This document shows, piece after piece, positions 27,037 through 41,716 of a DNA stretch of 62,096 nucleotides. A model generated the notes under the pieces. That model had not been told where the DNA came from, ran no database searches, and saw only the letters and a program-made list of their open reading frames with translations. This stretch comes from Bacteroidales bacterium (lineage in GTDB: Bacteria > Bacteroidota > Bacteroidia > Bacteroidales > Bacteroidaceae), in contig JALFUO010000045.1 of NCBI GenBank assembly GCA_022784065.1, positions 1 through 62,096 on the forward strand. Direction: 5' to 3'. Positions within the stretch are counted from its first letter, which is position 1. Each line of letters begins with the position of its first letter. The translations under genes were made by a program, and so were the position numbers.

Positions 27037-27129
27037 GTAGGGGCGTTTTGCAAAACGCCCGGTTGATGATTGCCTCATTGATTGATGCCTTGCGGCGCAT
27101 TTGTCGAGCGTTTTGCGAAACGTCCCTAC
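27037..27129. mobile_element. MITE-like element, copy C
   Basis: Inverted ends GTAGGGGCGTTTTGC... (27037-27060) and complement (27106-27129), 93 bp in all, filling the gap between the two paralogous secreted-protein genes and ending 21 bases before the second start. Confidence 0.85.
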
Positions 27130-27150
27130 TCCTTAATTCAAAACCCTAAT

Positions 27151-30100
27151 ATGCAGAACTATCTACTCAAAATCGCCTGTCTCCTGCTTTGCTGCTTCGC
27201 AGGCGCAGGGCGCGGCATCGCGCAGACCGCCGACTACCCCACACTTTACGGCGGCGTGATTTTTGCCTACGGTTGGGGCGACATGCAGCAACCGCCGTAT
27301 GGCGTATATTCTATTCCCGCCAACGACGGCACGGCACCGCAGGCCGTACACATCTCGCCCGAACTCAAAGCCAACGGCGGCGGCGTGTATATCGACGGCA
27401 TATATTATATCGTCAGTTATGAAACATATTCTGACGCGATTACCGTTTCGCTGCGTGCCTACGACACCCGTGACAATTGGAAACTCATCAGCGACACGCC
27501 GCTCGAAAACACCACGGGCATTGCCTCCGACCTCACCTACGACCCCGTGACCGACCAGGTGTTCGGCTGCTTCGGACTGGGTAACGACGAAACGGGGCGC
27601 AGCTATTACCTCGGCACACTCAACGTGTTCACAGGCGAAGTGACGCCTATCGGCAACCTTTCGCAAAAACTCTTCACCCTTTCCTGCAACAGGGAGGGCG
27701 AACTCTACGGCATCGGCGAATATGCCGAACTGATGCGCGTTGACAAGGAAACCGCCGCGCTGACGCTCATCGGCACCACGGGCAAGAACATCAAATACGA
27801 CCAGTCCGCCACGTTCGACTATGCCACGGGCCGCCTCTTCTGGGTGATGACGCCGCACGGCACGGAGAAGGACGTTGAGGTATGCGAAGTGAACCTCTCA
27901 ACGGGCGCAGCCGAGAAACTCACGGTTGTAGACAAGCACATGGAGTTTGTGGGGCTTTACACCACCTCTCCCTTCACCCCCGCCGGCGCTCCCGGGCGCA
28001 TCGGCAGCGTTGCCGCCGACTTTCCCCAAGGCGCGACGAGCGGCACCGTGCGCTTCACGCTGCCAAGCCAAACCTTTGGCGGCGATGCCCTTTCGGGAAC
28101 ACTCGCTTACCGCGTGCGCATTGACGGCAACGTCATTGCCGAAGGCACCGCAGCCGCAGGCAGCAGCGTCGGCGTGCCTGCCACGATGGCCGAAGGCGCA
28201 CACATTATTAAAATAGATGCCAGCAACGCCGCCGGCCGCTGCCCCGTGTACGTGCTGCGCGAATGGATAGGGCGCGACACGCCCAAGGCTGTCAACCCCA
28301 CCGCCACGCTCGGCGCAGACAATCTTGTCACGGTGGCTTGGGGCGCGGCGCAGGGCACGCACGGCGGTTACGTGGACGGCACGGCCGTTACCTATAAAGT
28401 GGTGCGCCAACCCGACGGCGCAACCATCTACGAGGGCAACGCCACCTCCTGCACCGAGGCGGCAGAGATTGCGCGCTTCGGCGTTTACACCTACGACGTG
28501 GAAACCTATTGGAGCAGCATGAAAGGCGAAACCGCCACGACGGAAGAAATAGTGCTCGGCAAGGAAGTGCCCCTGCCCTACAAGGAAACGTTCAACACGC
28601 CGAGCAGTCTGATGTCGTTTACGATTGAAGACACCAATGGCGACAACAATACTTGGTTCTACGAAGCAGGCAGCGTGACGTATGCCTACGCCGAAGCATC
28701 GATGCTCGACGGCGACGACTGGCTCATTTCGCCGCCCTTCCTCCTCGACACGGAGCACGTTTACGAACTCTCGTTCAAGGCAGCCTCGGGCGACGGCTAC
28801 GCCGACATCATCTCCGCCTGGCTCGGCACGCGCCCGCAGTCGGGGGCAATGGCGCAGAACGTCCTGCCCGAAACGGAGGTAAACAAGGCTTCTGCCACCA
28901 CACTCACTGCCATGTTCCGTCCCGAAGCAGACGGCCGCGCCTGCATCGGCCTGCACGCTACAAGCACTTACGAAGCGGGCTATTTCCTCACCATCGATGA
29001 TTTGCAGCTCCGCGAATTGGCTTCCGTGCATGCCCCCGCAGCAGCAACGGACGTGCAGGTAACGGCAGCCGCTGCCGGCGCACTGGGCGCAACGATTACC
29101 TGCACGCTGCCGCTGACCGACATCGGCGGCGCACCGCTCGATGCGCTCACGCAGGTTGTGGTGAAACGCAGCACGCAGACCATCGCCACGCTCACCGACG
29201 TCACGCCCGGACAAACTATTACGGTGAACGACACGCCGACCTCCAACGGCAATTTCTCTTATACCGTCATCGCCTCTAACGCCTACGGCCCAGGCCTTGT
29301 AGCAAAGGCAACAGCCTATGTGGGCGAGGATACGCCGGGCAATGTTGAGAACATCAAGGTGAACTGCGATGCCTCCGGCAACATCTCGCTTTCTTGGGAC
29401 GCACCGTCGGTCGGCACGCACGGCGGCTACGTCAATGCCTCGACGCTCTCCTACACCGTCACCGACATGCAGGGACAGAAGACCGAAACCACCGACCGCA
29501 CCTTCTCTACCACCGTCACGCCCACTGCGGGCAAGCAGACGCTGGCATGGTTCGGCATCCAGGCGCGCGGCCTGAAAGGCAACGGCCCCGTCACGCCCGC
29601 CGACACGGTATTTGTGGGCGACGCCTATGCCCAGCCCTACGCCGAGTCGTTCAGCAAACGCGGCATCGACTGCGGGCCGTGGGTTATTCAGGAAAGCGAT
29701 GTGTTTGAATGGAAATACCTCGCCATGGGCAGTTACAGCGACGCGCAGGACGGCGACGGCGGTCTCATGGCTTACATCAACGGTGCGGAAGGCACCACAG
29801 GCGCACTGATTTCTCCGAAAATTTCGCTCGCCGGCGCAGAAAATCCCACGTTGCGCTTCCATTTCTTCCGCCACCACGGCGCGATGAACGAACTGGCAGT
29901 CATTATCCGCGACGGCGCTGGCAATCGCCACGAAGTGCTGCGCCTCAAAGAGAACGAGATGAGCGGCGCAGACGTTGAAAAGGAATGGACGCGCCATTAC
30001 GTTTCGCTCGCGCCCTATGCCGCCGCCGGTCCCATACAAGTGCAGTTCCAAGCCCTCGGGCATCTTTCGCCCGAACTGATGAACGTGCTTTATGTAGACA

Positions 30101-31410
30101 ACATCTCCGTCTTCGACTGGCACGAGCACGACCTCATCGCAGGCACACTCGCGGCCGAAAAGAGCGAAGTGAAAGTGGGCGAGACCAACATGTTTACCCT
30201 CTCCTATCGCAACAACGGCTCGCTGCCTGCTACGGATTACAGCGTAGAACTGCTGCGCGACGGCAAGGTGGTCTGCACCGCCGAGGGCGCGGAAGTAGCC
30301 CCCGACGCGCTGGCAAGCATCACGCTCACCGACACGCCCAACTCCGACGCCGCCGAATCGAGCGTTTATAGCGCGCGCATCGTGGCAGAGCATGATTTCA
30401 GCGATACGGACAATCTCTCCAACGCCGTCACCGTCACCGTGCTGCCCGGCCTGCCGTTTGTGAGCAACGTCACAGCGAATTATGCCGATGGCGTTTGCAC
30501 GCTTTCTTGGGAAAAACCTTTCTTCAACGAGTCGTCCGAAGCCACCGACGTGGTAGAAGATTTTGAGTCGTACACCGCCTTCACTATCCAAAACCTCGGG
30601 CAATGGACGCTCTACGACGGCGACGGCCGCCTCACGGCTGGCATACAGAACGGCTATGGCGATTACATCGACTACCCCAACGCCGGCGCCGCCATGGCTT
30701 ATCAGGTGTTCAATCCCTCGAAGGCTGGCCTTACCTCTTTCACTTGGCAACCGCACTCTGGCCAGCAGGTGCTTGCCGCCTTCACCAGCGGTCGCCTTGC
30801 TGTCAACAACGACTGGCTTATCTCGCCGCCCGTCAACGGCAGCCAGACCGTGACGTTCTGGGCTAAGAGCCCCAGCAACACCACCTACGGCACCGTGGAG
30901 AGCATCGAGGTACTCTATTCAGAGGGCAGCACTGATGCCGCCGACTTTACCAAGATAGGCAGCACCATCACCGTGCCGGGCTCTTGGCGGCAAATCTCTT
31001 TCGACCTGCCAGAGAGTGCCCAGCGGTTTGCTATCCGCTGCGTGTCGGACGACCAGTATATATTATATATCGACGACATCGCCTACCGCCGCGCCGCCGA
31101 CGGCCTCACTTTCGTGGGCTACAATGTTTACCGCGACGGCGAGAAACTCACCGCTGCGCCCATTGCCGAGCCTGCTTACAGCGAGACGATGCCTGCCGGC
31201 GAGCACAACTATGCCGTTTCGGTGGTTTACACTACCGGCGAGTCAATCCTCTCGCCTGCCACCTTCGTGAGCCCCACGGGCATCAGCACTATCCTCATGC
31301 CTGAAAGATCCAGCCAGCCCGTACCCGTCTACGACCTTAGCGGCCGCCGCGTCACCCGCGCAGGCAAAGGCATCTATATCGTTGGCGGCAAGAAAGTTTT
31401 TGTGAAATAA
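27151..31410 (+). CDS. Giant secreted multidomain protein, paralogue of the preceding one
   Basis: 1419 residues with signal peptide (LKIACLLLCCFAGAGRGIAQ). Same order as its neighbour: propeller-like N-terminus, FN3-like segments, choice-of-anchor J folds starting near 475 (YKETFNTPSSL), 830 (YAESFSKRG) and 1134 (VEDFESYTAF), CARDB-like domain near 992, then VGYNVYRDG. It ends with YDLSGRRVTRAGKGIYIVGGKKVFVK-type tail (last 37 residues), the short C-terminal signal frequent in Prevotella exported proteins. Start at 27151 opens the signal peptide; the longer reading to 27082 would translate repeat DNA. Confidence 0.86.
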   Translation: MQNYLLKIACLLLCCFAGAGRGIAQTADYPTLYGGVIFAYGWGDMQQPPYGVYSIPANDGTAPQAVHISPELKANGGGVYIDGIYYIVSYETYSDAITVSLRAYDTRDNWKLISDTPLENTTGIASDLTYDPVTDQVFGCFGLGNDETGRSYYLGTLNVFTGEVTPIGNLSQKLFTLSCNREGELYGIGEYAELMRVDKETAALTLIGTTGKNIKYDQSATFDYATGRLFWVMTPHGTEKDVEVCEVNLSTGAAEKLTVVDKHMEFVGLYTTSPFTPAGAPGRIGSVAADFPQGATSGTVRFTLPSQTFGGDALSGTLAYRVRIDGNVIAEGTAAAGSSVGVPATMAEGAHIIKIDASNAAGRCPVYVLREWIGRDTPKAVNPTATLGADNLVTVAWGAAQGTHGGYVDGTAVTYKVVRQPDGATIYEGNATSCTEAAEIARFGVYTYDVETYWSSMKGETATTEEIVLGKEVPLPYKETFNTPSSLMSFTIEDTNGDNNTWFYEAGSVTYAYAEASMLDGDDWLISPPFLLDTEHVYELSFKAASGDGYADIISAWLGTRPQSGAMAQNVLPETEVNKASATTLTAMFRPEADGRACIGLHATSTYEAGYFLTIDDLQLRELASVHAPAAATDVQVTAAAAGALGATITCTLPLTDIGGAPLDALTQVVVKRSTQTIATLTDVTPGQTITVNDTPTSNGNFSYTVIASNAYGPGLVAKATAYVGEDTPGNVENIKVNCDASGNISLSWDAPSVGTHGGYVNASTLSYTVTDMQGQKTETTDRTFSTTVTPTAGKQTLAWFGIQARGLKGNGPVTPADTVFVGDAYAQPYAESFSKRGIDCGPWVIQESDVFEWKYLAMGSYSDAQDGDGGLMAYINGAEGTTGALISPKISLAGAENPTLRFHFFRHHGAMNELAVIIRDGAGNRHEVLRLKENEMSGADVEKEWTRHYVSLAPYAAAGPIQVQFQALGHLSPELMNVLYVDNISVFDWHEHDLIAGTLAAEKSEVKVGETNMFTLSYRNNGSLPATDYSVELLRDGKVVCTAEGAEVAPDALASITLTDTPNSDAAESSVYSARIVAEHDFSDTDNLSNAVTVTVLPGLPFVSNVTANYADGVCTLSWEKPFFNESSEATDVVEDFESYTAFTIQNLGQWTLYDGDGRLTAGIQNGYGDYIDYPNAGAAMAYQVFNPSKAGLTSFTWQPHSGQQVLAAFTSGRLAVNNDWLISPPVNGSQTVTFWAKSPSNTTYGTVESIEVLYSEGSTDAADFTKIGSTITVPGSWRQISFDLPESAQRFAIRCVSDDQYILYIDDIAYRRAADGLTFVGYNVYRDGEKLTAAPIAEPAYSETMPAGEHNYAVSVVYTTGESILSPATFVSPTGISTILMPERSSQPVPVYDLSGRRVTRAGKGIYIVGGKKVFVK

Positions 31411-31415
31411 AAAAA

Positions 31416-31442
31416 GTAGGGGCGTTTTGCAAACGCCCCTAC
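31416..31442. repeat. Collapsed MITE-like palindrome
   Basis: Perfect 12-bp arms GTAGGGGCGTTT/AAACGCCCCTAC around TGC. It is a solo, interior-less member of the family, six bases after the stop of the second giant gene and 18 bases before the M6 protease start. It could also act as a hairpin in the mRNA. Confidence 0.8.
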
Positions 31443-31459
31443 TCAAAAAATCCTTCCCC

Positions 31460-34255
31460 ATGAACACCCGCAACCTCCTTCTCTCCCTGCTGCTCTTCGC
31501 CGCCGCGCCCATGCTCCGCGCCCTACCGGCCGACCCCGCGCCGCGCCGCGTAGTGCAGCCCGACGGCAGCACCCTCATCGTGCGCCTCTGCGGCGATGAG
31601 CATTTCCATTACCACCTTTCCCTCGACAGCCTACCCCTGGTGCAGCGCGAAGGGTTCTTCTATTACGCCACGGTGGGCGAGGGCAACCTCAACGCCACCG
31701 CCCTCCGCGCCCGCAACATCGCCGAGCGCACGCCCGAGGAAATCTCTTTTGTAAAGAATTTCAACAAAACCGCCGCGCTCGATGCCCTGCGGCAAACACG
31801 CGCAGCCCTGCGCCGCGCCCCCGGCAAGCGGTTGGGCATCAAGGCCGGCACAATCGGCACGCAGGCCTACCCCACCACGGGCGCACAGCGCGCACTGGCC
31901 ATTCTCGTGAGTTTCCCCAAGACCACAGCCGACGGCGAGGCAACGGATTTCACCGTGCCCAATCCCCGGCAGACGTTCAGCGATATGCTTAACAAGGAAG
32001 GCTTCGACTACGACGGCGCAACGGGCAGCGTACACGACTACTTCATCGACGGTTCCGGCGGCAAGTTCAACCTCACCTTTGACGTCTACGGCCCGGTAGT
32101 CCTCAGCAAGGACATCAGCTTCTACGGACAGAGCGTGCAGGGCGAAGACCTCAACGCCTGGAACATGGCCATAGAGGCTTGCACGCAACTCGACGACGAA
32201 ATTGATTTCTCCATTTACGACCGCGACAAGGACGGGGCGGTAGACAATATATATATATTCTACGCCGGACAAGGCGAGGCCACGGGCGGCCCTGCCTACA
32301 CCGTGTGGCAGCACGCGGCAGAAATCGAGGCCATCACGGGCAAGCAGTATGTCTTCGACGGCGTGCGCGTGAACCGCTACGCCTGCTCCAACGAGTTGCG
32401 CCCCATCGTCAATCCCGCCACGGGCGCGTCGGAGATGCACCTCGAAGGCATCGGCACCGTGTGCCACGAGTTCACCCACGTACTCGGTTTCCCCGACCTC
32501 TACGACACCTCCGGCTCGGGCTATCTCACGCCCGGCAACTGGACCATCATGGACGTGGGTTCGCACAACAACCATGCGCACACGCCGCCCACCTACTCCG
32601 CCTACGAGCGCCTCTCGCTCGGCTGGCTCACGCCAGAAGACATCGATGCCACGCCGCGCAACATCGTGCTCGAAAATGTCACCACGGGCCACGCCCTGCG
32701 CATAGCCACGCAACAGGGAGCCGACGAGTATTTCTTGCTCGAAAACCGCCAGCAAACGGGCTGGGACACCTATCTGCCCGGACACGGCATGCTCGTTTGG
32801 CACATCACGTACGATGCTGACCTTTGGCAGTCCAACAAGGTGAACTCCACGCCATGGCTGCAAGGCGTGGACCTCGTGGAAGCCGATGGCAGTGCGGGCG
32901 ATGCTACGCGCCCTGCCGATGCCTTCCCCGGCACGGACAACGTCACTTCCCTCACCGACGACACCACGCCCTCGCTGCGCGACAGCGACGGACTCCCCAC
33001 GGGCGTGCCTATTACGGAGATTAAGGAAAAGAGCGGACTCATTGAACTTAAAATCGCAGGCGGCAAGCCCACGCTGCCCGCCGTAGAGAATGCCCGCGCC
33101 GACGACGTCACGCCCATCGGCTTCACCGCCCGTTGGGACGCCGTGGAGAGCGCAACGGCCTATGCCGTGGACGTTTGGACACGCACGGACCGGGGCAATC
33201 GCTACGTAGACGGTTTCCACCCCTGCACCGTCACCGCCACGCATTGCGCCGTAACGGGCCTGCAAGCCGAGACAGAATATTTCTTCACCGTCAAGGCACA
33301 AAGCGCATCGGCCACCGGCAGCACGATGGAAGCCGTGAGCGTCACCACGCCCGCTGCCACCTTTGCCTACTCCGCCCCCACAGCCTTAGAGCCCGCCGAC
33401 GTGACTGCCACGGGTTTCACCGCCCGCTGGGAGGCTATGCCGGAAGCCACGGGCTACGCCCTCGACGTGCTCACGCGCACCCTCTCCGACCCTGAAAGCA
33501 GTACGGTCGACTTTACCGACGGTCTTAAAAACCTGCCCGCAGGCTGGACCACGAATTGCAAGATGACGCTCTCCACCGCCGGTGCTTATGGCGAGGCGGC
33601 CCCGTCTGCCTCCCTCTCTGCCGACAATATGTACATCGAGAGTGCGCCCTACGCCGACGGCATCCGCGCCCTCACCTTCTGGTATCGCGAGCGCAACGCT
33701 CCCTGTGGCGAGAACTATGTGGTAATCGACGCCCTCTGTGGCGGCAGTGCCGACTGGCAGCACGCCGACACGCTGTGGCTCACCGACACCGCGCCTGCCT
33801 CGGGCAGCACTTACACCCTCGCCTGCGCCGCCGACGCACCAGCCGGCAGCACGAGCCTCTTGCCCGACAGCTGCATCGCCGTGCGCCTCACCTACCGCCG
33901 CGTCGGCAGCGGCGGCTTGGCAGTCGATGACATTCGCCTCCGCCACGGCGGCGAACCCGTGTGGCACGCCGTGCCACCCTACGACCGCCTGAATGTGGGC
34001 ACCGCCACGCAGTATGCCGTGAGCGGCCTTTCCGCCTCCGGGCAATATTATTACCGCGTTTACGGCACGCAGGGCGACCTCTTCTCCCTGCCCTCCGCCC
34101 CCATCGCCGTACCCGCGCCGCAGAGCGGCATCGCCGCCCTACCTGCCGCGCCCGCCGCGCGCCCCGCCGCTCCGGCTTACGACCTTAGCGGCCGCCGCAC
34201 CGTGCCTAATGCAAAAGGCATATATATAATAGATGGTAAGAAGTTTGCAAAGTAG
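31460..34255 (+). CDS. Secreted M6-family metalloprotease with FN3-like domains
   Basis: 931-residue exported zinc protease (immune-inhibitor-A-like). Signal peptide 1-21. Pro-region to about 130, catalytic domain about 140-500 with HEFTHVLGFPDLYD at 336-349 (HExxHxxGxxD zinc site) and Met-turn-like WTIMD at 361. Two FN3-like modules begin near 537 and 640 (both with GFTARW), then a lectin-like fold about 680-830. The last 27 residues (YDLSGRRTVPNAKGIYIID...) match the tail of the upstream giant protein, implying the same export and anchoring route. Calcium-type DRDKDGAVD is at 254-262. The stop codon lies inside the following repeat. Confidence 0.92.
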   Translation: MNTRNLLLSLLLFAAAPMLRALPADPAPRRVVQPDGSTLIVRLCGDEHFHYHLSLDSLPLVQREGFFYYATVGEGNLNATALRARNIAERTPEEISFVKNFNKTAALDALRQTRAALRRAPGKRLGIKAGTIGTQAYPTTGAQRALAILVSFPKTTADGEATDFTVPNPRQTFSDMLNKEGFDYDGATGSVHDYFIDGSGGKFNLTFDVYGPVVLSKDISFYGQSVQGEDLNAWNMAIEACTQLDDEIDFSIYDRDKDGAVDNIYIFYAGQGEATGGPAYTVWQHAAEIEAITGKQYVFDGVRVNRYACSNELRPIVNPATGASEMHLEGIGTVCHEFTHVLGFPDLYDTSGSGYLTPGNWTIMDVGSHNNHAHTPPTYSAYERLSLGWLTPEDIDATPRNIVLENVTTGHALRIATQQGADEYFLLENRQQTGWDTYLPGHGMLVWHITYDADLWQSNKVNSTPWLQGVDLVEADGSAGDATRPADAFPGTDNVTSLTDDTTPSLRDSDGLPTGVPITEIKEKSGLIELKIAGGKPTLPAVENARADDVTPIGFTARWDAVESATAYAVDVWTRTDRGNRYVDGFHPCTVTATHCAVTGLQAETEYFFTVKAQSASATGSTMEAVSVTTPAATFAYSAPTALEPADVTATGFTARWEAMPEATGYALDVLTRTLSDPESSTVDFTDGLKNLPAGWTTNCKMTLSTAGAYGEAAPSASLSADNMYIESAPYADGIRALTFWYRERNAPCGENYVVIDALCGGSADWQHADTLWLTDTAPASGSTYTLACAADAPAGSTSLLPDSCIAVRLTYRRVGSGGLAVDDIRLRHGGEPVWHAVPPYDRLNVGTATQYAVSGLSASGQYYYRVYGTQGDLFSLPSAPIAVPAPQSGIAALPAAPAARPAAPAYDLSGRRTVPNAKGIYIIDGKKFAK

Positions 34256-34278
34256 GGGCGTTCCGCAGAACACCCTAC
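34252..34278. repeat. Degenerate MITE-like palindrome overlapping a stop codon
   Basis: GTAGGGGCGTTCCGCAGAAC... with CACCCTAC at the far end. The TAG of GTAGGGG is the stop codon of the M6 protease gene. Confidence 0.7.
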
Positions 34279-34287
34279 TTCTTATAA

Positions 34288-34336
34288 CAATTGCGGTCGG
34301 TTCAAAACAGGATTGAACCGACCGCAATTGTTTTTG
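34288..34336 (+). terminator. Rho-independent terminator of the secreted-protein cluster
   Basis: Perfect 18-bp stem CAATTGCGGTCGGTTCAA with its complement (34288-34305, 34314-34331), 8-base loop, then TTTTT. Confidence 0.92.
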
Positions 34337-34344
34337 CTTATATC

Positions 34345-34375
34345 TTAAGGTGCGAATTTATAGAACCCACCTTAA
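34345..34375. repeat. AACCCACCTTAA repeat end
   Basis: Hairpin TTAAGGTG...CACCTTAA overlapping the stop of the caspase gene. Read on the minus strand, AAGGTGGGTTCTATAAATTCGC matches the repeat upstream of sufC (61938-61960) with one difference. Confidence 0.55.
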
Positions 34376-35889
34376 AACATCAAGGATCTCCAAATTTCGC
34401 TGACAGAGGGCGAGGCGGAGGTAGAAGGGGTTTGCGGCTTGCGCTGCTTGAGCTCTAAGGCGCGCTTGCTCACATTGGCACGCAGGATGTCGGAGAGTTC
34501 GCCGAAAGTAACGTAACCCGAGGTATATTGCAGCGATTTGAGCAGGTAGTAGGTGAAGAGGCCGTGTCCCTGTTCCTGATACCCCTGCGCCGTTTCATTG
34601 CCCTGCGCGGCAGAGAACACGATGACGTTGCCAGAAGTGAGCGTGCCTTCCTCTGCGGCGATTTCCACGCCGCGCTCACCCTCGTTCACGCTTCGGTTGT
34701 CGCGGTCGATGCCGCTGAAGCAGGCGTCAAGGAATACGCAGGTCTGGCTGAAAGCCAAGTCGCCGATGCGGGCATAGAAGTCGTCGAGCGCAATGCCGTT
34801 AGCCGGCTTCGTGCCGCGCACGTCGGTGGGGAGGAGATATGCCTTGTTCTTCTGGCTCACGTCGGGCACACCGTGCCCGGCATAATAAACGATAAGTTTC
34901 TTGCTGTCGCGATTGGGTATCGATTCGAGCCAGGGGAGTTCATCTTCAAGGATAATCTGCTTGGTGGCGTCTTCGCAAATATGGATGTGTTCGGCGGGCA
35001 GGCCAAGCGTCTGCTCGCAGTACTGGCGGAACACGCGGGCATCGTGTATAGCATAAGGTACCTGCGGCACGAAGCGGTAGTTTTCGTTGCCAATAATGAG
35101 GGCGTAGGTGTCGCGCTTCACGTAGATATTGCTCGGGATAATGCTGTCTACCTCGGAGGTGATGTAGTCGTAGTCGGCGAGGGCGTTAGAGTTGCCGCCC
35201 TTGCGATAGCGTTCGATGGCGTCTTTGGAGAAGCCGTAGGTGTGGCCGTTGCGCGAGTTGATTTGAATGGGCAGGCGGCGCACCTCGTCGTTGTAGAGCG
35301 TGTGGCGCACCTTTCCGTCCACCCTTATTTCGGAGGCGAAGACGTAGCGGCCGAGGGTAGCGGTGGGGCTAACCTCAATGGAGCGGACGCTGCTACAGTT
35401 TAAGAAGGCCTGGTCCTGCACGTGGCACTGGTCGGGCACTTTCACGGAGGTGAGTGAGCGGCAGTTGGCAAAGGCTATGGTGCCGATGCTTTTGAGTTGT
35501 TTGGGCAGAGAGATATTCACGAGGCGTTCACAGTCCATGAATGCGCCCCAGCCGATTTTGTTGCAAACGTTGTCGTCGAAGATGACTTCCGTGAGGACGC
35601 GGCAGCCGGCAAAGGCGCACGAACCGATGTTTTCTATGCCGCGACCCACGCGCACGGCCTGCACGTTGAGTTTTTTCTTTATCCACGGCGCGAGGTGCTT
35701 CTGCGCGTCGTAGTTGTCCATAATGGCCGTGAAGCCTTTGGTGTTGGTATTTGTGAGCGTGAGTGTTTTGCCATCGAAGGTCCACGCTACGTCTTTGCCG
35801 CACTTACCATCGGTTGTGATGTAATCCTGTGCGGAGAGGCCGGTCGCACCGAGCAACGCGGCAATGAGGAGTGCAAATATCTTTTTCAT
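34372..35889 (-). CDS. Exported caspase-like (C14) peptidase with BspA-type LRR
   Basis: 505 residues. Sec signal 1-20. Residues about 25-75 are a small beta region (TFDGKTLTLTNTNTKG); 80-190 are BspA/TpLRR leucine-rich repeats (IGSCAFAGCRVLTEV, IGWGAFMDCERLVNI, IGTIAFANCRSLTSV). The caspase fold spans about 258-495: YALIIGNENY, catalytic His339 in YYAGHG and catalytic Cys390 in FLDACFSG, both present. A periplasmic or surface location for a caspase-like protease is unusual. It is the last gene of a six-gene operon with a CHASE2 sensor. P1 specificity and substrate unknown; C14 members usually cut after Arg/Lys or Asp. Confidence 0.9.
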   Translation of the reverse strand: MKKIFALLIAALLGATGLSAQDYITTDGKCGKDVAWTFDGKTLTLTNTNTKGFTAIMDNYDAQKHLAPWIKKKLNVQAVRVGRGIENIGSCAFAGCRVLTEVIFDDNVCNKIGWGAFMDCERLVNISLPKQLKSIGTIAFANCRSLTSVKVPDQCHVQDQAFLNCSSVRSIEVSPTATLGRYVFASEIRVDGKVRHTLYNDEVRRLPIQINSRNGHTYGFSKDAIERYRKGGNSNALADYDYITSEVDSIIPSNIYVKRDTYALIIGNENYRFVPQVPYAIHDARVFRQYCEQTLGLPAEHIHICEDATKQIILEDELPWLESIPNRDSKKLIVYYAGHGVPDVSQKNKAYLLPTDVRGTKPANGIALDDFYARIGDLAFSQTCVFLDACFSGIDRDNRSVNEGERGVEIAAEEGTLTSGNVIVFSAAQGNETAQGYQEQGHGLFTYYLLKSLQYTSGYVTFGELSDILRANVSKRALELKQRKPQTPSTSASPSVSEIWRSLMF

Positions 35890-35913
35890 GATTTCAGTAA
35901 ACGGGTTTTAATT

Positions 35914-36882
35914 TTACCAAAAGAAGGTGAGGCCGATGCGGCTGCTGGTGGCGTTAAACTTTTCTTTCTGCGAACCGAAGATTTTTGTCTCAACCGATTT
36001 GTGCTTCCAGTCGCCTTTTGTGATTTCGTAGGAGATACCGATGAATTTCCAGTTGATGCGGAAGCCGAGTTGCGTGTAGAGGCCGTGCGCCCACGTGATA
36101 AGGCTACTGCTGTTCACCTTGTCGTAAGCTGTTTGTGCCGCTGTGCCATTGTAGGCAGGATCGTTGATGTCGCCCGCCTCTGCCTCTGGGTCGTTGACGT
36201 CTTTGTCCTTGTCGCTGCTGCGAAACATGATGTCGAAGCGATAGCCGAGGGCGAAATAGGCTTGTAGGCGCAGGTGTGCCAGTCCTTTGCTTTTCAAGGC
36301 GGTGAAAGGCGCAACGGTGATTGAGGGACCGATGTGCATGCCATAGGAGATGTCGTACATTTCCAGTCCCCAGGGCGAATAATAGATGAGGTTTTTCGTG
36401 TCGGAGCCGTCTTTTACGATACTGCTGTTGTAAGCAAAGTCGGGCATCTGCTTGTAGTGGTTCACCGAAAGGTTGAGCGGCGAGAACTCGAGTCCGAACG
36501 CCACGGTGTTGGCAATAGGCTTTTTGTGCAGGCGGAAGGTGTTGGCGCTTTGCAGTGAGAAGCCCCAATCGCTCTCAAATTTGTAGCTTTTCACATTGTA
36601 GGCGTCTTCCTTTGCCTCGTAGAAAGGCACTTTTCTGGCTGTCAGTCTTGATGTGTTGTAGCTCACGGAAAAGGTTTTCTTGCGCTTCCACACTTGCTGG
36701 AGGTTTTCGCGGTTGTAGTTTTTGCTATAAACCTCCTGCTGCATCTTTAAGATGTCGGCGAGTGACACCACGTTGGCTGTGTCTTCCTCGTAATCGAGAA
36801 GCTGCTGTTTGTTCTCGTCGATTTGTGCCGCGGCGGTCAGTGCGAAGAGCAAGGCCGCCAGCAGGGTTAGTTGTTTTTTCAT
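35914..36882 (-). CDS. Predicted outer-membrane beta-barrel protein
   Basis: 322 residues with a Sec signal peptide (TLLAALLFALTAAAQ). The mature part shows many alternating amphipathic strands (WGFSLQSANTFRL, NTVAFGLEFSPLNLSVNHY, GPSITVAPFTAL, HGLYTQLGFRINWKFIGISYEITKG) and ends with an aromatic residue after SSRIGLTFFW, as barrels assembled by BAM do. No family recognised. An N-terminal stretch of about 80 residues precedes the strands. It lies 24 bases upstream of the caspase gene and 12 bases after the DUF4384-like gene. It may anchor the system in the outer membrane. Confidence 0.75.
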   Translation of the reverse strand: MKKQLTLLAALLFALTAAAQIDENKQQLLDYEEDTANVVSLADILKMQQEVYSKNYNRENLQQVWKRKKTFSVSYNTSRLTARKVPFYEAKEDAYNVKSYKFESDWGFSLQSANTFRLHKKPIANTVAFGLEFSPLNLSVNHYKQMPDFAYNSSIVKDGSDTKNLIYYSPWGLEMYDISYGMHIGPSITVAPFTALKSKGLAHLRLQAYFALGYRFDIMFRSSDKDKDVNDPEAEAGDINDPAYNGTAAQTAYDKVNSSSLITWAHGLYTQLGFRINWKFIGISYEITKGDWKHKSVETKIFGSQKEKFNATSSRIGLTFFW

Positions 36883-36894
36883 TGTGATTAGGTA

Positions 36895-37782
36895 TTATTG
36901 TTTGTTATATATTTTAATCCATTTGTTGCGGTCTACCACCATATCGTCGTCCTGCTGCTTGAGGCGTTTGAGCCACGCCTCGAAGTCGTCGATGCTCAAC
37001 GAGTTGGGGTGCCGGCGGTCTCCGGTGATTTCGTTGCACTTGGTGAACTTGTTGGGCGAGAAAATTAGCACCACCTGATCCATTTCGAGCGGCATGCTCG
37101 TGGTAAGGCAATAGGGAATGGCGCGGGGGTCGGACTCTTTGTCGAAGAAGATGTAGTCTTTGCCGCCCATCACCTCGTGCCGCCCCATGACGTTGTGCTT
37201 GTAGGGCAGGAGGCAGGAGGCTTCCTTGTTGGTGCTGTCGAGCAGATAAATGGCGAGGAAGCCCGACACGGGTGCGCGGAATTTGATGTAAATCCTTTCT
37301 TTATGCCTGAACTCGTCGCTTTCGTCGCTGTCGGCCGTACCGCCGCAGAGCACTTTCCAGTCCAGTTCTATGGCGGCGCTTGTAATGGGCCGCGCCATAC
37401 CCCATACTTCTGCCGTGAAGACGATGCGCTCGCCGTCGGAGTCGTATTTCACCACCGGCTCTTTCGTGTCTTCCACCCACTCAGCCTTTGCGCTCAGCGT
37501 GGTTTCTTCCACGAAGTTGGAGATGTCCGTGCCGTTCACCGTGCCTTCCACGATGTTGGTCGTAGACGAGAGGCTTTCGCCAAAGGCTTCCTTAATGGCC
37601 TCGTAGCGGGCGCGTTTGACGCACTCGCGCTTGGCTTCGATGAGCGTCATATTGTCGTTTTCGGAGAGTATCAGCGTAGCCTTGCCGTGCACTTTACGCG
37701 GTTTTGTGTCCTTATCGGCGTAAGCGGCGGCAGTGGCAGTAAGGAGCAATATATATATAAATGTATAGAGTCGGCGCATCAT
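36895..37782 (-). CDS. Exported DUF4384-like protein
   Basis: 295 residues with a signal peptide (YIYILLLTATAAAYA). Residues about 30-140 look like the LPP20/FlgT-type fold: EAKRECVKRARYEAIKEAFGESL then a strand-rich part. Residues about 165-255 (KERIYIKFRAPVSGFLAIYLLD ... CLLPY ... YIFFDKES) match the DUF4384 pattern, which recurs beside or fused to bacterial caspases. The start overlaps the stop of the upstream gene (ATGA), showing translational coupling. Function unknown. Confidence 0.75.
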   Translation of the reverse strand: MMRRLYTFIYILLLTATAAAYADKDTKPRKVHGKATLILSENDNMTLIEAKRECVKRARYEAIKEAFGESLSSTTNIVEGTVNGTDISNFVEETTLSAKAEWVEDTKEPVVKYDSDGERIVFTAEVWGMARPITSAAIELDWKVLCGGTADSDESDEFRHKERIYIKFRAPVSGFLAIYLLDSTNKEASCLLPYKHNVMGRHEVMGGKDYIFFDKESDPRAIPYCLTTSMPLEMDQVVLIFSPNKFTKCNEITGDRRHPNSLSIDDFEAWLKRLKQQDDDMVVDRNKWIKIYNKQ

Positions 37783-39725
37783 AGCGGTATCAGTGTTACG
37801 TTGGTGTTATCTATCTGAGGCATTTCCATACCCACACGTGCATTGATATAGGTAGGGTCGCAGAGGGAGTAGTCTTTGCCGTTGAGTGAGTAGCACACGC
37901 CGGTCGGCGTTTGGGCAAAGCGCACGGCGGCGGCGAGGTGTCCGGGATAGTAAATCAGCGCGCAGTCCAGCCCAAGCAGGTCGCGCACGAGGCGGGTGAA
38001 GAGAATGGCGCGGTCTTCGCAGTCGCAGAAGGGATAGTAGAGACTTTCCTCGGCAAAGAACACGCGGTCGCCGCCCCACACCTTATCGTCGTACTCATAT
38101 TCCAGCCCGGTCTGCACGAGGTTGAGCAGCCGCTCCACAGCTTCCAACTCGCCCAAGCCTTTGAGGCGTTCGCGCAGGGCAGGATACACCTGTTCTTTCA
38201 CCGCCTCGTTCATGGGCGTGTTGGCATACATCACCCAGCGCGAAGTAACGTCTTGATTGACGATAGAGGCGGGGTAAGAGTCGTAGAAGTCGATGAGGTT
38301 CTTATTCACCTGCACTTTGCATTCGAGACCGTCGTAGCGGTGCGAGGCAATGGTCCGCTCATCCGCTGGGGCGGTTTCGGCAAAGGCGGGACTTTGGGGG
38401 ATGAAGAGCGAAAGACTTTGCTCCTTGGGGAAAGAGGCACGGCAGATGCTGAGGTTGCCGCCTACGTCCTCGAGGGGATAGAAGCGTTCGCCGTCCACAA
38501 TGACCGACTCCTTGTCGTAAATGAAATGGCGCGAGGCCACGAGCAGGTAAATCCTGTCGGCCACGCTGCCGAAGCGCACTTTATAGCCCGACTGATAGTA
38601 GAGATAACCTGCCAAGAGGGCGGCCTCGTTGGTCTGCGCGCCGCAGAATTGGTCGGCAATGGTCTGCACGAGGAGCAGATACGCCCAGTCGCAGAGCTTG
38701 CGGTTCTTGCGTATTTGCAGGCAGTCGTAGAGCAGGTTGTCGTAGTCGCCGCCGGAGAAATATTCCAAGGCATCGGCCACGCGGTCGGGCGAGATTTCGC
38801 CAAGGTTGATGCGCTGGTCTTCGCCGAGGTGCACGCGCAGCTCCGTTCCGAAGAAAGTGACGGGCATGTTTTGGTATTCTTTGTCCTCCTCACCGATGGG
38901 CAGGGGCTTTATCTTAAAGGGCGGCATCACCTTGGGGGCAACGCGCTCGGGGTCGGCGGGCACGAGGTTCACTTTTTGCGGCAGGCGTTTCACAGGCGCC
39001 TTGCCGATCGCTATGGTCTGCCGCGCCGTGTCACTGCACACCACGGGTTTCACCCGCAGCTCCTGCGGCCGCCGCACGGGCGGTTCCATGCCAAACTCTG
39101 CCCACGCCTCGCGCACGAAGGCGAGATATTCGCGGTTGCACTTTTCGCGGAAGTCGTCGAACTCCTTATTGGCCTGTTTCTTGAATTTCTGAAACTCTTC
39201 TTCAAAGGGGTTTTTCTTCTTGCCCGGCTTCTGGGCTGCTGCCACGGAGTCGCGCTCGCGCGTCACGCAGGCAAAGTCGCTGTAACGCTGCTTGGACACG
39301 AGCCCTTTCTTGGTCATTTGTTTCTTGACATACTGCACATAGCCCAGCGACAGGGCGGCGATGCTGTTGTTCTTGTTCTCGCTCAGCACCTTGACCGTTC
39401 CCTTTCCGGCTTTCTTGATGGTGATGCGGCGGGCGTTCTTTTCGTCGAGCAACTCCACCTTGCCGGCATAGGGCACATTGATCACGTCGCCCCACTCCAC
39501 CGCCGCGTTCATCACGAGCGGCTGCGCCTTGCCGTCCTTATAGCGCACCACGTCGCCTACCACGTGATAGGCAATAAGTTTCTGCGCCAGGGCCGTGCCG
39601 GCAAACGTCATAGCCAAGCAGGCGAGGCATACATATTTAATTTTAATGGAAGCCTTGCGGATAAATGGGCGGGCGTTTTGCAGAACGCCCCTACCCCATT
39701 CTGCGCATATATAGAAGTTTCTCAT
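37779..39725 (-). CDS. Exported protein with FecR-like N-terminus and transglutaminase-like C-terminus
   Basis: 648 residues. After a signal segment ending FAGTALAQ (48), residues 50-115 read as a FecR-like beta fold (YHVVGDVVRYKDG ... VEWGDVINVPYAGKVELLD). A charged coiled-coil-like linker (170-210) follows. Residues 360-425 resemble a degenerate papain-like half (NEAALLAGYLYYQSGYKVRFG). The C-terminal part has an intact transglutaminase triad: Cys569 in DCEDRAILF, His596 in PGHLAAAV, Asp623 in CDPTY. The first 25 codons are partly MITE repeat, yet the ATG overlaps the CHASE2 stop (ATGA), which supports this start; a non-ATG start nearer the signal peptide is the alternative. Confidence 0.82.
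   Translation of the reverse strand: MRNFYICAEWGRGVLQNARPFIRKASIKIKYVCLACLAMTFAGTALAQKLIAYHVVGDVVRYKDGKAQPLVMNAAVEWGDVINVPYAGKVELLDEKNARRITIKKAGKGTVKVLSENKNNSIAALSLGYVQYVKKQMTKKGLVSKQRYSDFACVTRERDSVAAAQKPGKKKNPFEEEFQKFKKQANKEFDDFREKCNREYLAFVREAWAEFGMEPPVRRPQELRVKPVVCSDTARQTIAIGKAPVKRLPQKVNLVPADPERVAPKVMPPFKIKPLPIGEEDKEYQNMPVTFFGTELRVHLGEDQRINLGEISPDRVADALEYFSGGDYDNLLYDCLQIRKNRKLCDWAYLLLVQTIADQFCGAQTNEAALLAGYLYYQSGYKVRFGSVADRIYLLVASRHFIYDKESVIVDGERFYPLEDVGGNLSICRASFPKEQSLSLFIPQSPAFAETAPADERTIASHRYDGLECKVQVNKNLIDFYDSYPASIVNQDVTSRWVMYANTPMNEAVKEQVYPALRERLKGLGELEAVERLLNLVQTGLEYEYDDKVWGGDRVFFAEESLYYPFCDCEDRAILFTRLVRDLLGLDCALIYYPGHLAAAVRFAQTPTGVCYSLNGKDYSLCDPTYINARVGMEMPQIDNTNVTLIPL
39671..39694. 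repeat. MITE-like repeat end inside a coding start
   Basis: GGGCGTTTTGCAGAACGCCC followed by CTAC, a single family palindrome located within the first 20 codons of the transglutaminase-like gene. Confidence 0.75.
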
Positions 39726-41020
39726 TTCTCTTTATTATGCTTTATACGTTGTTGCATTCTCTTACACCGTGGCCCGCATGCCTCTTTCCCTTCTTTGATT
39801 TTGCGCACCACGAAATTGAAGAAGCGGTGAATATAGCCTGTTTCGTGCTGCTCGCGCAGTGCCAACACGTAGTTTTTCAGGGCGGTGTACATGCTGCGCG
39901 AGGTGCCGAGGAAGGTAATCACTGTGAGTGCCCACGCGAGGTTGAAGCTGATGTAGAACTGCTTGAACACGATGTAAGAGATGCCGAGGAACACGGAGGT
40001 GAAGAGGAAGGTGAGCACCGTGAGGAAATATGTGGAGCCCACGATGTACTTCACGAACACGCTCTTCGAGGCCTGCGTGCGCCCGAGGTAGCCCGACTGC
40101 AACACCTCCACCAGGAAGATGACCAGCAGCGAGATGACGCAAAGCAACACAAAGGGCACATTGTACACCTCGTTGCGGTCGATGATGCTTTGCAGGGCGT
40201 ATGCCCAGATGTTCACGCCCGCCATGCGTCCGTGGGGCGTCCAGTGCATATCACTGCCCTCGTACATCGCGCCGTAGAGCACGATTTGCCCCTCTATCAG
40301 CTCGGGATGCTGCTTCACCTCCTCGGGTCGCAACACGCGGAAGCAGGTGGGGGAGAAATTGATGTTCACCTCGTCGGTGCGGTCGCCGAGCACGTCCTCG
40401 CCGGCATACTTGTTGATGATTTGCCGCGCGAACGAAGGGTAATTCTGCCCCTCGTAACGCTCTGCGAGCGACACTTTGCGCTTCATGTTGTCGTAAAGAG
40501 CGCGGGGCATATTGCTCGCTCCCTCGGTGATGGGCAGCACGTCATAGAAAAAAGAGTGCACAGCCGTGGTCCAGCCGCGCTCCTCGTTTTTCCAGTCATA
40601 GAACTTCATGGCGAACACAATATTATCATAGGTCTCCGCCACGTGTATGAGGGAGTCATTGCCGCCGATGTCGCCGCGCTCGCCCTCAAAGCACACGTCG
40701 ACACCCACCACCGTGGGGCGGCAGGCTTCAATGTCTAATAAAGTCTGGGCCATTTCGGCGCGCGTCTGCTGCTCGGTAATGTCTACAATGGTGATGACGC
40801 GGCTTGTGTCTGCGCTGCTCGTCTCCTTTTGTATCTCGTAGTAAATATCTGTAAAGGAAAACTCACTGACGGCGCGGCGGATAGGGTCGAGCGGCTTGGC
40901 CTTCACCGCAATCAGGGCGAAGAAGCCGGTGATGGCAATCGCAAGAAAAGTCACTCCCAAATGCTTTCTCAGATCCGTCTTGGGAGGCTGCACGCTATTA
41001 TGGTCGCTTGCGTTATTCAT
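39722..41020 (-). CDS. CHASE2-domain membrane sensor without output domain
   Basis: 432 residues. TM1 at 21-40, a periplasmic CHASE2 domain about 50-285 (VITIVDITEQ, VVGVDVCFEGERG, IVLYGAMYEGSDMHWTPHG, AGVNIWAYALQ), then three helices at about 288-306, 322-346 and 348-372. CHASE2 proteins normally continue into a kinase, cyclase, caspase or HTH module; here only a basic 58-residue cytoplasmic tail rich in Lys/Arg follows. Its stop overlaps the next start (ATGA). The signal is therefore likely passed to the separately encoded periplasmic partners or an unlinked cytoplasmic protein. Confidence 0.88.
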   Translation of the reverse strand: MNNASDHNSVQPPKTDLRKHLGVTFLAIAITGFFALIAVKAKPLDPIRRAVSEFSFTDIYYEIQKETSSADTSRVITIVDITEQQTRAEMAQTLLDIEACRPTVVGVDVCFEGERGDIGGNDSLIHVAETYDNIVFAMKFYDWKNEERGWTTAVHSFFYDVLPITEGASNMPRALYDNMKRKVSLAERYEGQNYPSFARQIINKYAGEDVLGDRTDEVNINFSPTCFRVLRPEEVKQHPELIEGQIVLYGAMYEGSDMHWTPHGRMAGVNIWAYALQSIIDRNEVYNVPFVLLCVISLLVIFLVEVLQSGYLGRTQASKSVFVKYIVGSTYFLTVLTFLFTSVFLGISYIVFKQFYISFNLAWALTVITFLGTSRSMYTALKNYVLALREQHETGYIHRFFNFVVRKIKEGKEACGPRCKRMQQRIKHNKEK

Positions 41021-41041
41021 GGCAGGCAGGCACAGATGCTG

Positions 41042-41716
41042 TTACTCTGCTCCGTCGAGCAATTTCTCGAGTTTCGCTTTCAGTTCTTTTTCTTCCTCGC
41101 CAAAGAGTTTGAGGATTTCTGCCTTGGCACGGCCGCCGTCGCAGCTCACGGCGATTTGCACTTCTGCCTTGCCGTCTTTCTCTCTATATATCTCCATGAT
41201 AGCGTCGGTGCGTCCGAGGCTCTGCTGCACCATCGCCTTGCTTGTCTCCACGGTCTTGGCAATGGTCTCAGCCTCTCCGCCGGTGAGTTCCGTGGTGCTC
41301 TCGGTGCTTTCGGTCAGGGCTGCAATTTCTACCGCCATGGTCGAGGCCACGTCTACGCGGGCACGGGCAAGGGCTTGCTTGCGTGCCATGCCGGGCGTGG
41401 CGGCTACCGACGAGCCGCGCCCCACAATGTATTTCGGGAATTTGCCGGCGAGCGCATATTGTCTGAAACGCACTTCGGACAACTGCTGTGCCAAATCTGT
41501 CGTTCCCGGCATGGGTTTCCAGCCCTCGCGTGCCAACGCCTTGGCATCTTTGCGGGCATTCTTCGTCACCCGGGCTTTAAGGTCGGCCTCGGTCAGATTT
41601 TGCAGGTTCTTGCGCTCTGCAATTACGGTTTCCTGTTCTTCCAAATTGCTCTGTGCATAGAGGCTACCGCCCCCAAACGGGATAAAAAATAAAATCAGAG
41701 GGACAATCCGTTTCAT
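41042..41716 (-). CDS. Exported LPP20-like protein, first gene of caspase/CHASE2 operon
   Basis: 224 residues with signal peptide (PLILFFIPFGGGSLYAQ) but no lipobox Cys. The central part GMARKQALARARVDVASTMAVEIAALTESTES fits the LPP20-type repeat of small Ala-rich helices, followed by EIYREKDGKAEVQIAVSCDGGRA. A charged C-terminal helix (LFGEEEKELKAKLEKLL) may be a coiled coil. It lies 21 bases upstream of the CHASE2 gene and directly after the operon promoter. Function unknown. Confidence 0.75.
   Translation of the reverse strand: MKRIVPLILFFIPFGGGSLYAQSNLEEQETVIAERKNLQNLTEADLKARVTKNARKDAKALAREGWKPMPGTTDLAQQLSEVRFRQYALAGKFPKYIVGRGSSVAATPGMARKQALARARVDVASTMAVEIAALTESTESTTELTGGEAETIAKTVETSKAMVQQSLGRTDAIMEIYREKDGKAEVQIAVSCDGGRAKAEILKLFGEEEKELKAKLEKLLDGAE

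Follow-up and report, generated by a model that had tools for sequence, protein, structure and literature searches.

Bacterial caspases have mainly been studied as cytoplasmic enzymes of cell death and defence, and CHASE2 receptors mainly as inputs to cytoplasmic kinases and cyclases. The available portions of the literature describe a caspase-CHASE2 fusion in Trichodesmium erythraeum, with a caspase that the authors infer to be active in the cytoplasm (PMC3501461, PMC2853523), in addition to the EACC2-caspase-CHASE2 proteins (PMC8195603) and the Burkholderia BiofilmReg operon, in which an exported FecR-type protein is encoded beside a CHASE2 receptor (PMC5192318). Amongst metacaspase operons, the accessible part of one report lists OmpA in 14 and domains for signalling, sensing or regulation in 23 (PMC3501461), so that the proximity of a caspase gene to one for an outer-membrane protein has precedent in broad terms. 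Here we describe a six-gene operon of a gut-type bacterium, on the minus strand of the Bacteroidales contig JALFUO010000045.1 (assembly GCA_022784065.1), the whole analysed stretch of which (positions 1 to 62,096; 62,096 nucleotides) is referred to as the window. We give an even chance to the proposal that, in this operon and its relatives, exported cysteine proteases are under the control of a CHASE2 receptor devoid of an output domain, which acts along with an outer-membrane protein and a small exported partner. The genes of the operon and their domains are as follows.

41042..41716, minus strand: g1, the first gene, an LPP20-like protein of 224 amino acids, predicted to be exported (Pfam LPP20 match below the cut-off)
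39722..41020, minus strand: g2, a CHASE2 membrane protein of 432 amino acids with approximately four transmembrane segments (Pfam CHASE2, hydropathy)
40118..40882, minus strand: the CHASE2 domain of g2 (Pfam)
37779..39725, minus strand: g3, a protein of 648 amino acids, predicted to be exported, with a 'FecR-like' partner domain fused to a transglutaminase-like (TG) domain (profiles, catalytic triad)
39276..39590, minus strand: the FecR-like partner domain at the N-terminus of g3 (profile similarity to proteins encoded singly beside CHASE2)
37782..38153, minus strand: the putative TG catalytic domain of g3 (profile match, invariant Cys, His and Asp)
36895..37782, minus strand: g4, a DUF4384-like protein of 295 amino acids, predicted to be exported (Pfam match below the cut-off; family members)
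35914..36882, minus strand: g5, a possible outer-membrane beta-barrel of 322 amino acids with an aromatic last residue (alignment of nine sequences)
34372..35889, minus strand: g6, the last gene, an LRR_5-caspase (C14) of 505 amino acids, predicted to be exported (Pfam)
34414..35106, minus strand: the caspase domain of g6, with H339 and C390 (Pfam, alignment)
35332..35667, minus strand: the BspA-type leucine-rich repeats (LRR) of g6 (Pfam LRR_5; the family profile matches solved LRR proteins)

All six open reading frames (ORFs; 224, 432, 648, 295, 322 and 505 amino acids from g1 to g6) were confirmed, and the gaps of 21, -4, -4, 12 and 24 bases given in a first-pass annotation of the sequence proved exact. 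Its claim of Sec signals on five of the six proteins also stood, both when the sequences were read by eye and in the family-wide counts of a home-made heuristic. Its domain labels fared unevenly, in that CHASE2, C14 and LRR_5 scored above the Pfam cut-offs, whereas DUF4384, LPP20 and Transglut_core fell below them and no barrel family was matched.

The association of CHASE2 with caspase-fold proteases was assessed for 29 CHASE2 genes from 25 genomes of the window's order, with C14 and CHAT genes counted on the same contig within 8 kb. It was found that 21 of these CHASE2 genes had a C14 or CHAT neighbour, relative to an expectation of 0.68, based on gene numbers and genome sizes, and a maximum of 7 in 200,000 simulations, the negatives including G030 and G275 (contigs under 6 kb), G064 (a weak, partial CHASE2) and a fusion protein, L190. 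The latter joins CHASE2 (5.8e-24) to C14 (1.4e-12) within 1307 amino acids, and with the linkage it upholds the tie between CHASE2 and an exported-looking caspase-fold protease drawn in the earlier annotation. By eye, in this one sequence, a signal-peptide-like stretch follows the fourth transmembrane segment and precedes the protease part, hence the protease may lie outside the cytoplasm. A weak Sel1 match is located between the CHASE2 and caspase parts (L190:6134-10057, G425:C10).

CHASE2 is paired with CHAT as well as C14 in loci without the TG, LPP20-like and DUF4384-like set, and the caspase adjoining CHASE2 in L193 carries a C-terminal DUF4384 domain above the cut-off. Within the same class but another order, L313 encodes two C14 proteins, CHASE2 and a FecR-like protein; the consecutive C14 proteins have signal-like starts and are encoded upstream of CHASE2 and the FecR-like gene (L313:2334-10597, G618:C7), with a hint of M48, below the cut-off, downstream. 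In another class of the phylum, CHASE2 is followed by FecR-like, papain (Peptidase_C1), small-protein and C14 genes (L315:312-5890, G588:C32), where the papain protein has a weak DUF4384 match and the small protein a signal-like start. Protease labels were scattered on the CHASE2 tree (three changes for CHAT, 18 for C14 and 15 for none), though no counted protease swaps are claimed since 30 of the 64 rows are unlabelled, some of them from short contigs or a mis-called gene.

CHASE2 was identified in nine of 81 genomes, the window's own amongst the 81, and full-length relatives of the LRR-caspase in the window and four others. Loci with all six families were recognised in G045, G013 and G024, where they were read and profile-checked, and by profile labels in L084, L097, L112, L116, L138 and L146, which with the window gives ten loci; in G030 the six are split over two contigs (L013, L023). 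In all ten, the DUF4384-like, barrel and caspase genes are consecutive and CHASE2 adjoins the fused FecR-like and TG gene, with the two cassettes occurring in either order. The recurrence of the six families in nine other loci argues that the operon is not a chance cluster, and bears out the co-inherited envelope module first proposed. Counts of labels are lower bounds, as other ORFs picked by the greedy gene caller masked genuine genes in L015 (DUF4384-like and barrel), L016 (CHASE2), L019 (FecR-like) and L202 (a caspase, seen by Pfam); the masked genes of L015, L016 and L019 were checked afterwards.

Public genomes were searched for TG relatives, of which 80 of 250 were kept, the closest of those kept being contigs of Prevotellaceae, Bacteroidaceae and Bacteroidales metagenome-assembled genomes. 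One record, L161 (JAMPEL010000005.1), is titled Roseburia and holds a Bacteroidales-type TG/caspase locus, and its bin may be contaminated or mislabelled. After L093, which has no TG label, was left out, 79 TG loci were available, and in 42 of these the FecR-like domain is fused to TG, whilst in 37 TG stands alone; full 8 kb flanks were present for 26 of the fused loci and 18 of the TG-alone loci (44 of 79 in total). CHASE2 lies within 8 kb of 38 of the 42 fused genes versus none of the 37 TG-alone genes, and no FecR-like gene is found near the TG-alone genes either (0/37). Relatives of g1 occur near 37 of the 42 fused genes. The finding that the first-pass annotation named as refuting, parts present without the others, was half borne out, as 41 of the 79 TG loci lack a CHASE2 gene in that 8 kb range (the 37 TG-alone loci and four of the 42 fused ones) and as CHASE2 and a FecR-like partner occur without TG in loci such as L017, L018, L185, L187 and L191-L193. 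The system is modular, the six-gene form being one of its configurations.

This modularity could suggest a loose neighbourhood of exported genes, retained by chance or by shared expression and serving no common pathway, in which parts recombine and several occur without the others. We regard such a neighbourhood as highly improbable, given that co-location is far above chance, that a CHASE2-caspase fusion exists, that the partner domain goes with CHASE2 in the proportions above (38/42 versus 0/37), and that the sub-order is constant in ten loci. A surface-protein maturation or assembly machine is also conceivable, though we think it unlikely. The LPP20-like, DUF4384-like and barrel proteins would then form an outer-membrane complex, the caspase and TG would act on cargo, for instance BspA/LRR surface proteins, by processing or attaching it, and CHASE2 would serve as a scaffold rather than a sensor. 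The remaining parts look exported, the 37 TG-alone loci, which lack CHASE2, hold LPP20-like genes in 22 cases, DUF4384-like in 10 and a caspase in 13, and a TG paralogue in the window's genome has other exported-looking proteins, including a DUF6175 protein, as neighbours. Set against such a machine are the use of CHASE2 as a receptor domain elsewhere, according to the accessible portions of two reports (PMC5192318, PMC13001267), its pairing with CHAT and C14 where the TG, LPP20-like and DUF4384-like set is lacking, and the lower frequency of the caspase than of CHASE2 near fused TG genes (16/42 versus 38/42).

The g2 protein matches Pfam CHASE2 (PF05226) at 4.5e-16 (59.6 bits, and 60.9 in the genome search, relative to a cut-off of 26.3), with one transmembrane segment before the domain and approximately three after it by hydropathy. 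Amongst the 64 CHASE2 proteins of these loci (63 distinct), 63 have at most 76 residues past the last hydrophobic segment, the exception being the L190 fusion. As read from their sequences, the g2-type proteins are without the cytoplasmic output domain (kinase, cyclase or GGDEF) of classical CHASE2 receptors.

The N-terminal domain of g3 is most likely a partner of CHASE2, judging from its profile match to standalone proteins and their adjacency to CHASE2. Other genera encode the FecR-like domain in a separate gene adjoining CHASE2, and the profile of these standalone neighbours, the 18 rows of which take in the window protein, matches the g3 domain with a probability of 99.6 (E 2e-23). Of 64 CHASE2 genes, 52 are followed directly by the FecR-like domain, and a caspase sits between the two in L187, L189 and L019. 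The membership of the FecR family (PF04773) assigned in the first-pass annotation was not sustained: none of the 18 proteins matched Pfam FecR at E up to 0.1, none of the six operon proteins did so at E up to 1, and profile comparison gave 1.2-2.7% against general Pfam FecR proteins and 0.5-0.6% against FecR proteins beside CHASE2 receptors (17 rows, from which L299 was left out owing to a wrong-strand ORF). The partner domain resembles FecR proteins in position only, these too being encoded beside CHASE2 receptors (PMC5192318, and the loci L296-L312, picked for this arrangement).

The C-terminal domain of g3 is classed as TG-like by an ordered Cys-His-Asp triad and profile similarity. The triad lies at C569, H596 and D623, as previously placed, and is invariant in 48 TG sequences, the window's included. 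The g3 match to Transglut_core (PF01841) falls below the cut-off (0.18; 12.5 bits versus 23), whilst the Pfam model is matched by 32 of the 48 in the family at a limit of E 0.1, 1.4e-4 being the best value, and the paralogue in the window's genome reaches 21.6 bits. In a single comparison restricted to domain limits, the TG profile matched 23 Pfam-positive Transglut_core proteins with an hhalign probability of 79 (E 1.5e-5), Cys and Asp being aligned, versus at most 1.2% for six other family profiles; full-length alignments were uninformative (5.5% for TG versus up to 5.1% for unrelated pairs). The domain may cut, cross-link or only bind. The paralogue follows six exported-looking genes, including the DUF6175 gene (L204:644-7195, G000:C19), and similar sets occur in L108 and L124.

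The g6 protein is a predicted C14 caspase with a complete His-Cys dyad, matching Peptidase_C14 (PF00656) at 7.7e-16 (58.9 bits versus a cut-off of 21.4) and LRR_5 at 1.8e-21, above the cut-off. H339 (in YYAGHG) and C390 (in DACFSG) are intact at the positions first reported and invariant across 12 aligned caspases, the window's included. Amongst solved structures, the family profile matched LRR proteins only (E up to 1) and the caspase domain alone matched nothing. This domain does match the PADLOC caspase model (1.5e-12), which raises an anti-phage or regulated cell-death system with the caspase as the killing effector, in line with the phage sensing entertained in the first-pass annotation. 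Caspase and CHASE2 domains co-occur in described conflict systems, in the available part of that source (PMC8195603), and the distribution is patchy, with CHASE2 in 17 of 393 genomes of the order. We nevertheless consider a killing role very improbable, as the enzymes look exported, away from the usual cytoplasmic targets, and no further PADLOC match, and with it no partner gene of a described anti-phage caspase system, was obtained at E up to 0.1 among the six proteins, the only ones scanned. One flank of the operon consists of housekeeping genes (dapB, signal peptidase and inositol phosphate synthase), the CHASE2 protein matched none of 50,697 phage records, and TG had one plasmid match and one match in an unannotated record of the phage collection, both partial. 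With the caspase domain alone matching PADLOC and no phage record matching CHASE2, phage sensing was not supported. The TG and CHASE2 searches lend no support to a phage or plasmid origin, the caspase not having been searched there. The phage-collection record, a 4 kb 'Bacteriophage sp.' sequence holding a TG relative of 35% identity (MT839828.1:454-1890), is possibly bacterial DNA.

The remaining proteins were less readily assigned. The g4 match to DUF4384 (PF14326) is below the cut-off (0.0064; 17 bits versus 27), and 21 of 24 family members, the window's included, match at E up to 0.1 (best 1.4e-7). The g1 match to LPP20 (PF02169) is likewise below it (0.038; 14.9 bits versus 25.9), with weak matches in two of 22 family members. 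No Pfam barrel family matched g5 at E up to 1; an aromatic C-terminus is found in g5 and some of its eight relatives, the others ending in GK, K or R, and g5 is a possible outer-membrane beta-barrel. The TG, CHASE2, DUF4384-like, FecR-like, LPP20-like and barrel profiles gave no credible match to solved structures at E up to 1.

After duplicates and cut starts were removed, the heuristic detected signal peptides in 46 of 53 caspases, 6 of 6 CHAT proteins, 122 of 127 TG proteins and 66 of 70 FecR-like proteins, versus 259 of 553 unlabelled ORFs of 300 amino acids or more. Pfam outer-membrane barrel or OmpA proteins are encoded upstream of CHASE2 in the CHAT loci L017, L018, L020 and L185, the four of seven checked (L021, L192 and L195 were left out). 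In the TPR-caspase loci L092 and L102, partners of 584-586 amino acids match a barrel family, and a 616 amino acid protein of L107 has an LPP20-like match below the cut-off. Outer-membrane proteins near CHASE2 in the tested loci would also suit nutrient or host-protein sensing like that of NsrA and CHASE2, with the proteases trimming or clearing an incoming protein ligand rather than carrying a signal. In the accessible text, a plant protein elicits a response of the CHASE2 cyclases of Sinorhizobium meliloti by way of an outer-membrane barrel (PMC13001267), and the LRR domain of g6 could bind protein ligands. Since CHASE2 here is without cytoplasmic output and Pfam recognised no regulator among the six proteins, no known route would lead the signal to genes, and sensing of this kind appears quite improbable.

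We return to the proposed control of exported proteases by an output-less CHASE2 receptor, which would constitute a trans-envelope signalling module with its output outside the cytoplasm. Judging from its sequence, the CHASE2 protein resides in the inner membrane, its sensor domain facing the periplasm; the small exported FecR-like partner, frequently encoded next to it, would bind it. Relay or uptake of the signal may fall to a barrel in the outer membrane, in this operon perhaps g5, along with g1 and g4. As output, one or more cysteine proteases or papain-like enzymes would act after export: in this operon the LRR-caspase g6 and the partner-fused TG-like domain, and in other loci CHAT, other C14 or papain proteases. 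On sensing a ligand or an envelope change, the receptor complex would release or activate these enzymes, which might then cut or cross-link envelope or surface proteins. As an interpretation of the whole operon, the first-pass annotation is partly supported.

Several points weigh against this proposal. A C14 or CHAT gene is near only 11 of the 26 fused FecR-like and TG loci with full flanks, for which reason the caspase is optional there and the obligatory caspase cascade of the first-pass annotation is not supported; action of TG itself as effector is one possible reason for the missing genes. Three genomes of one genus (G389, G322 and G233) encode CHASE2 and its partner with no C14 or CHAT within 8 kb, G436:C1 has only TG beside the pair, and L314 consists of CHASE2 and FecR-like only, with no C14 or CHAT. 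The 29 loci of the linkage test are not independent, since the genomes are related, its 8 kb limit was chosen after some loci had been seen, and, as the C14 genome search missed L190, proteases may have been undercounted on either side of the comparison. The heuristic flagged as many as 47% of the unlabelled ORFs, and the tested neighbours in L193 and L126 matched nothing in Pfam, no known outer-membrane protein in the former case. Binding, activation and cleavage are steps that we infer, and the TG activity and barrel fold are putative.

A broader claim is more tentative, and we lean against it. Here, output-less CHASE2 proteins that switch on exported caspase- or papain-fold proteases would form a new class of signal transduction, with sensor, adaptor and effector all in the periplasm or outer membrane, with CHAT, C14, papain and TG-like proteins as interchangeable effectors of one adaptor, and with the first extracytoplasmic bacterial caspase pathway. 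Any recurrent module that couples output-less CHASE2 receptors to exported caspase-fold proteases would place both families in an unexpected role. It would also suggest a function, open to experiment, for exported caspases, CHAT and TG-like proteins in Bacteroidales of the gut and rumen, where the pairs of genes are simple enough to be studied by deletion.

The surroundings of the operon were also inspected. The window's genome (2.23 Mb assembly, 103 contigs, 85% completeness) yielded one CHASE2 and one C14 gene, both within the operon, and no CHAT gene was found in this 85% complete sequence. Between the end of the operon and a convergent gene lies one further feature.

34286..34332, strand not assigned: a strong hairpin between the end of the operon and the M6 peptidase gene that converges on it (fold z-score of -8.5 for 34256-34371)

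The hairpin probably serves mainly to end the plus-strand gene, because its T run is on that strand; we make no claim that it terminates the operon itself, as it is without a U run on the operon strand. A search upstream of g1 for a Bacteroides-type promoter gave a single pair at a spacing of 15, and therefore none is claimed. The convergent plus-strand gene (31427-34255) encodes an immune-inhibitor-A type M6 peptidase with an Fn3 domain, and the adjoining plus-strand genes at 22460-26998 and 27082-31410 encode very large proteins with identical match sets (CARDB above the cut-off, RGI_lyase and DUF4394 below).

No description of this operon's composition was found among the titles listed in searches of open-licence literature. 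Like bacterial orthocaspases and C14 peptidases, g6 has the Pfam C14 domain and an intact His-Cys dyad; it differs from them in its predicted export and BspA-type LRR, and its operon setting was not found among those titles. The cyanobacterial fusion and the EACC2 proteins, in so far as their sources are accessible (PMC3501461, PMC2853523, PMC8195603), couple a caspase to CHASE2 as this operon does, but as single polypeptides, whereas here the caspase is separate, bears a signal peptide, and is accompanied by the partner domain, TG, DUF4384-like and barrel-like proteins. The BiofilmReg operon comprises a response regulator and a CHASE2 histidine kinase with cytoplasmic output, its available text mentions no protease, and its FecR protein contrasts with the partner here, which is not detectably FecR (PMC5192318). 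A further 17 loci from other Bacteroidota classes (L296-L312), picked for Pfam FecR near CHASE2, have the order FecR, a protein of 794-918 amino acids and a long CHASE2 protein; the large proteins of L296 and L309 had no Pfam match. These loci share with ours a CHASE2 gene near that of a small protein with an export leader, and differ in the length of CHASE2 (729-920 amino acids), in having Pfam FecR and in showing no caspase or CHAT label by profiles, and the CHASE2 protein of L296, the one tested, has a guanylate cyclase domain. The accessible account of the NsrA/CHASE2 cyclases of S. meliloti, an outer-membrane beta-barrel and an inner-membrane CHASE2 receptor, provides a published precedent for an outer-membrane barrel acting with CHASE2, although the output there is cytoplasmic cyclic AMP (PMC13001267). 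We regard the module described here as a variant of CHASE2 signalling that has a fair chance of being a distinct kind.

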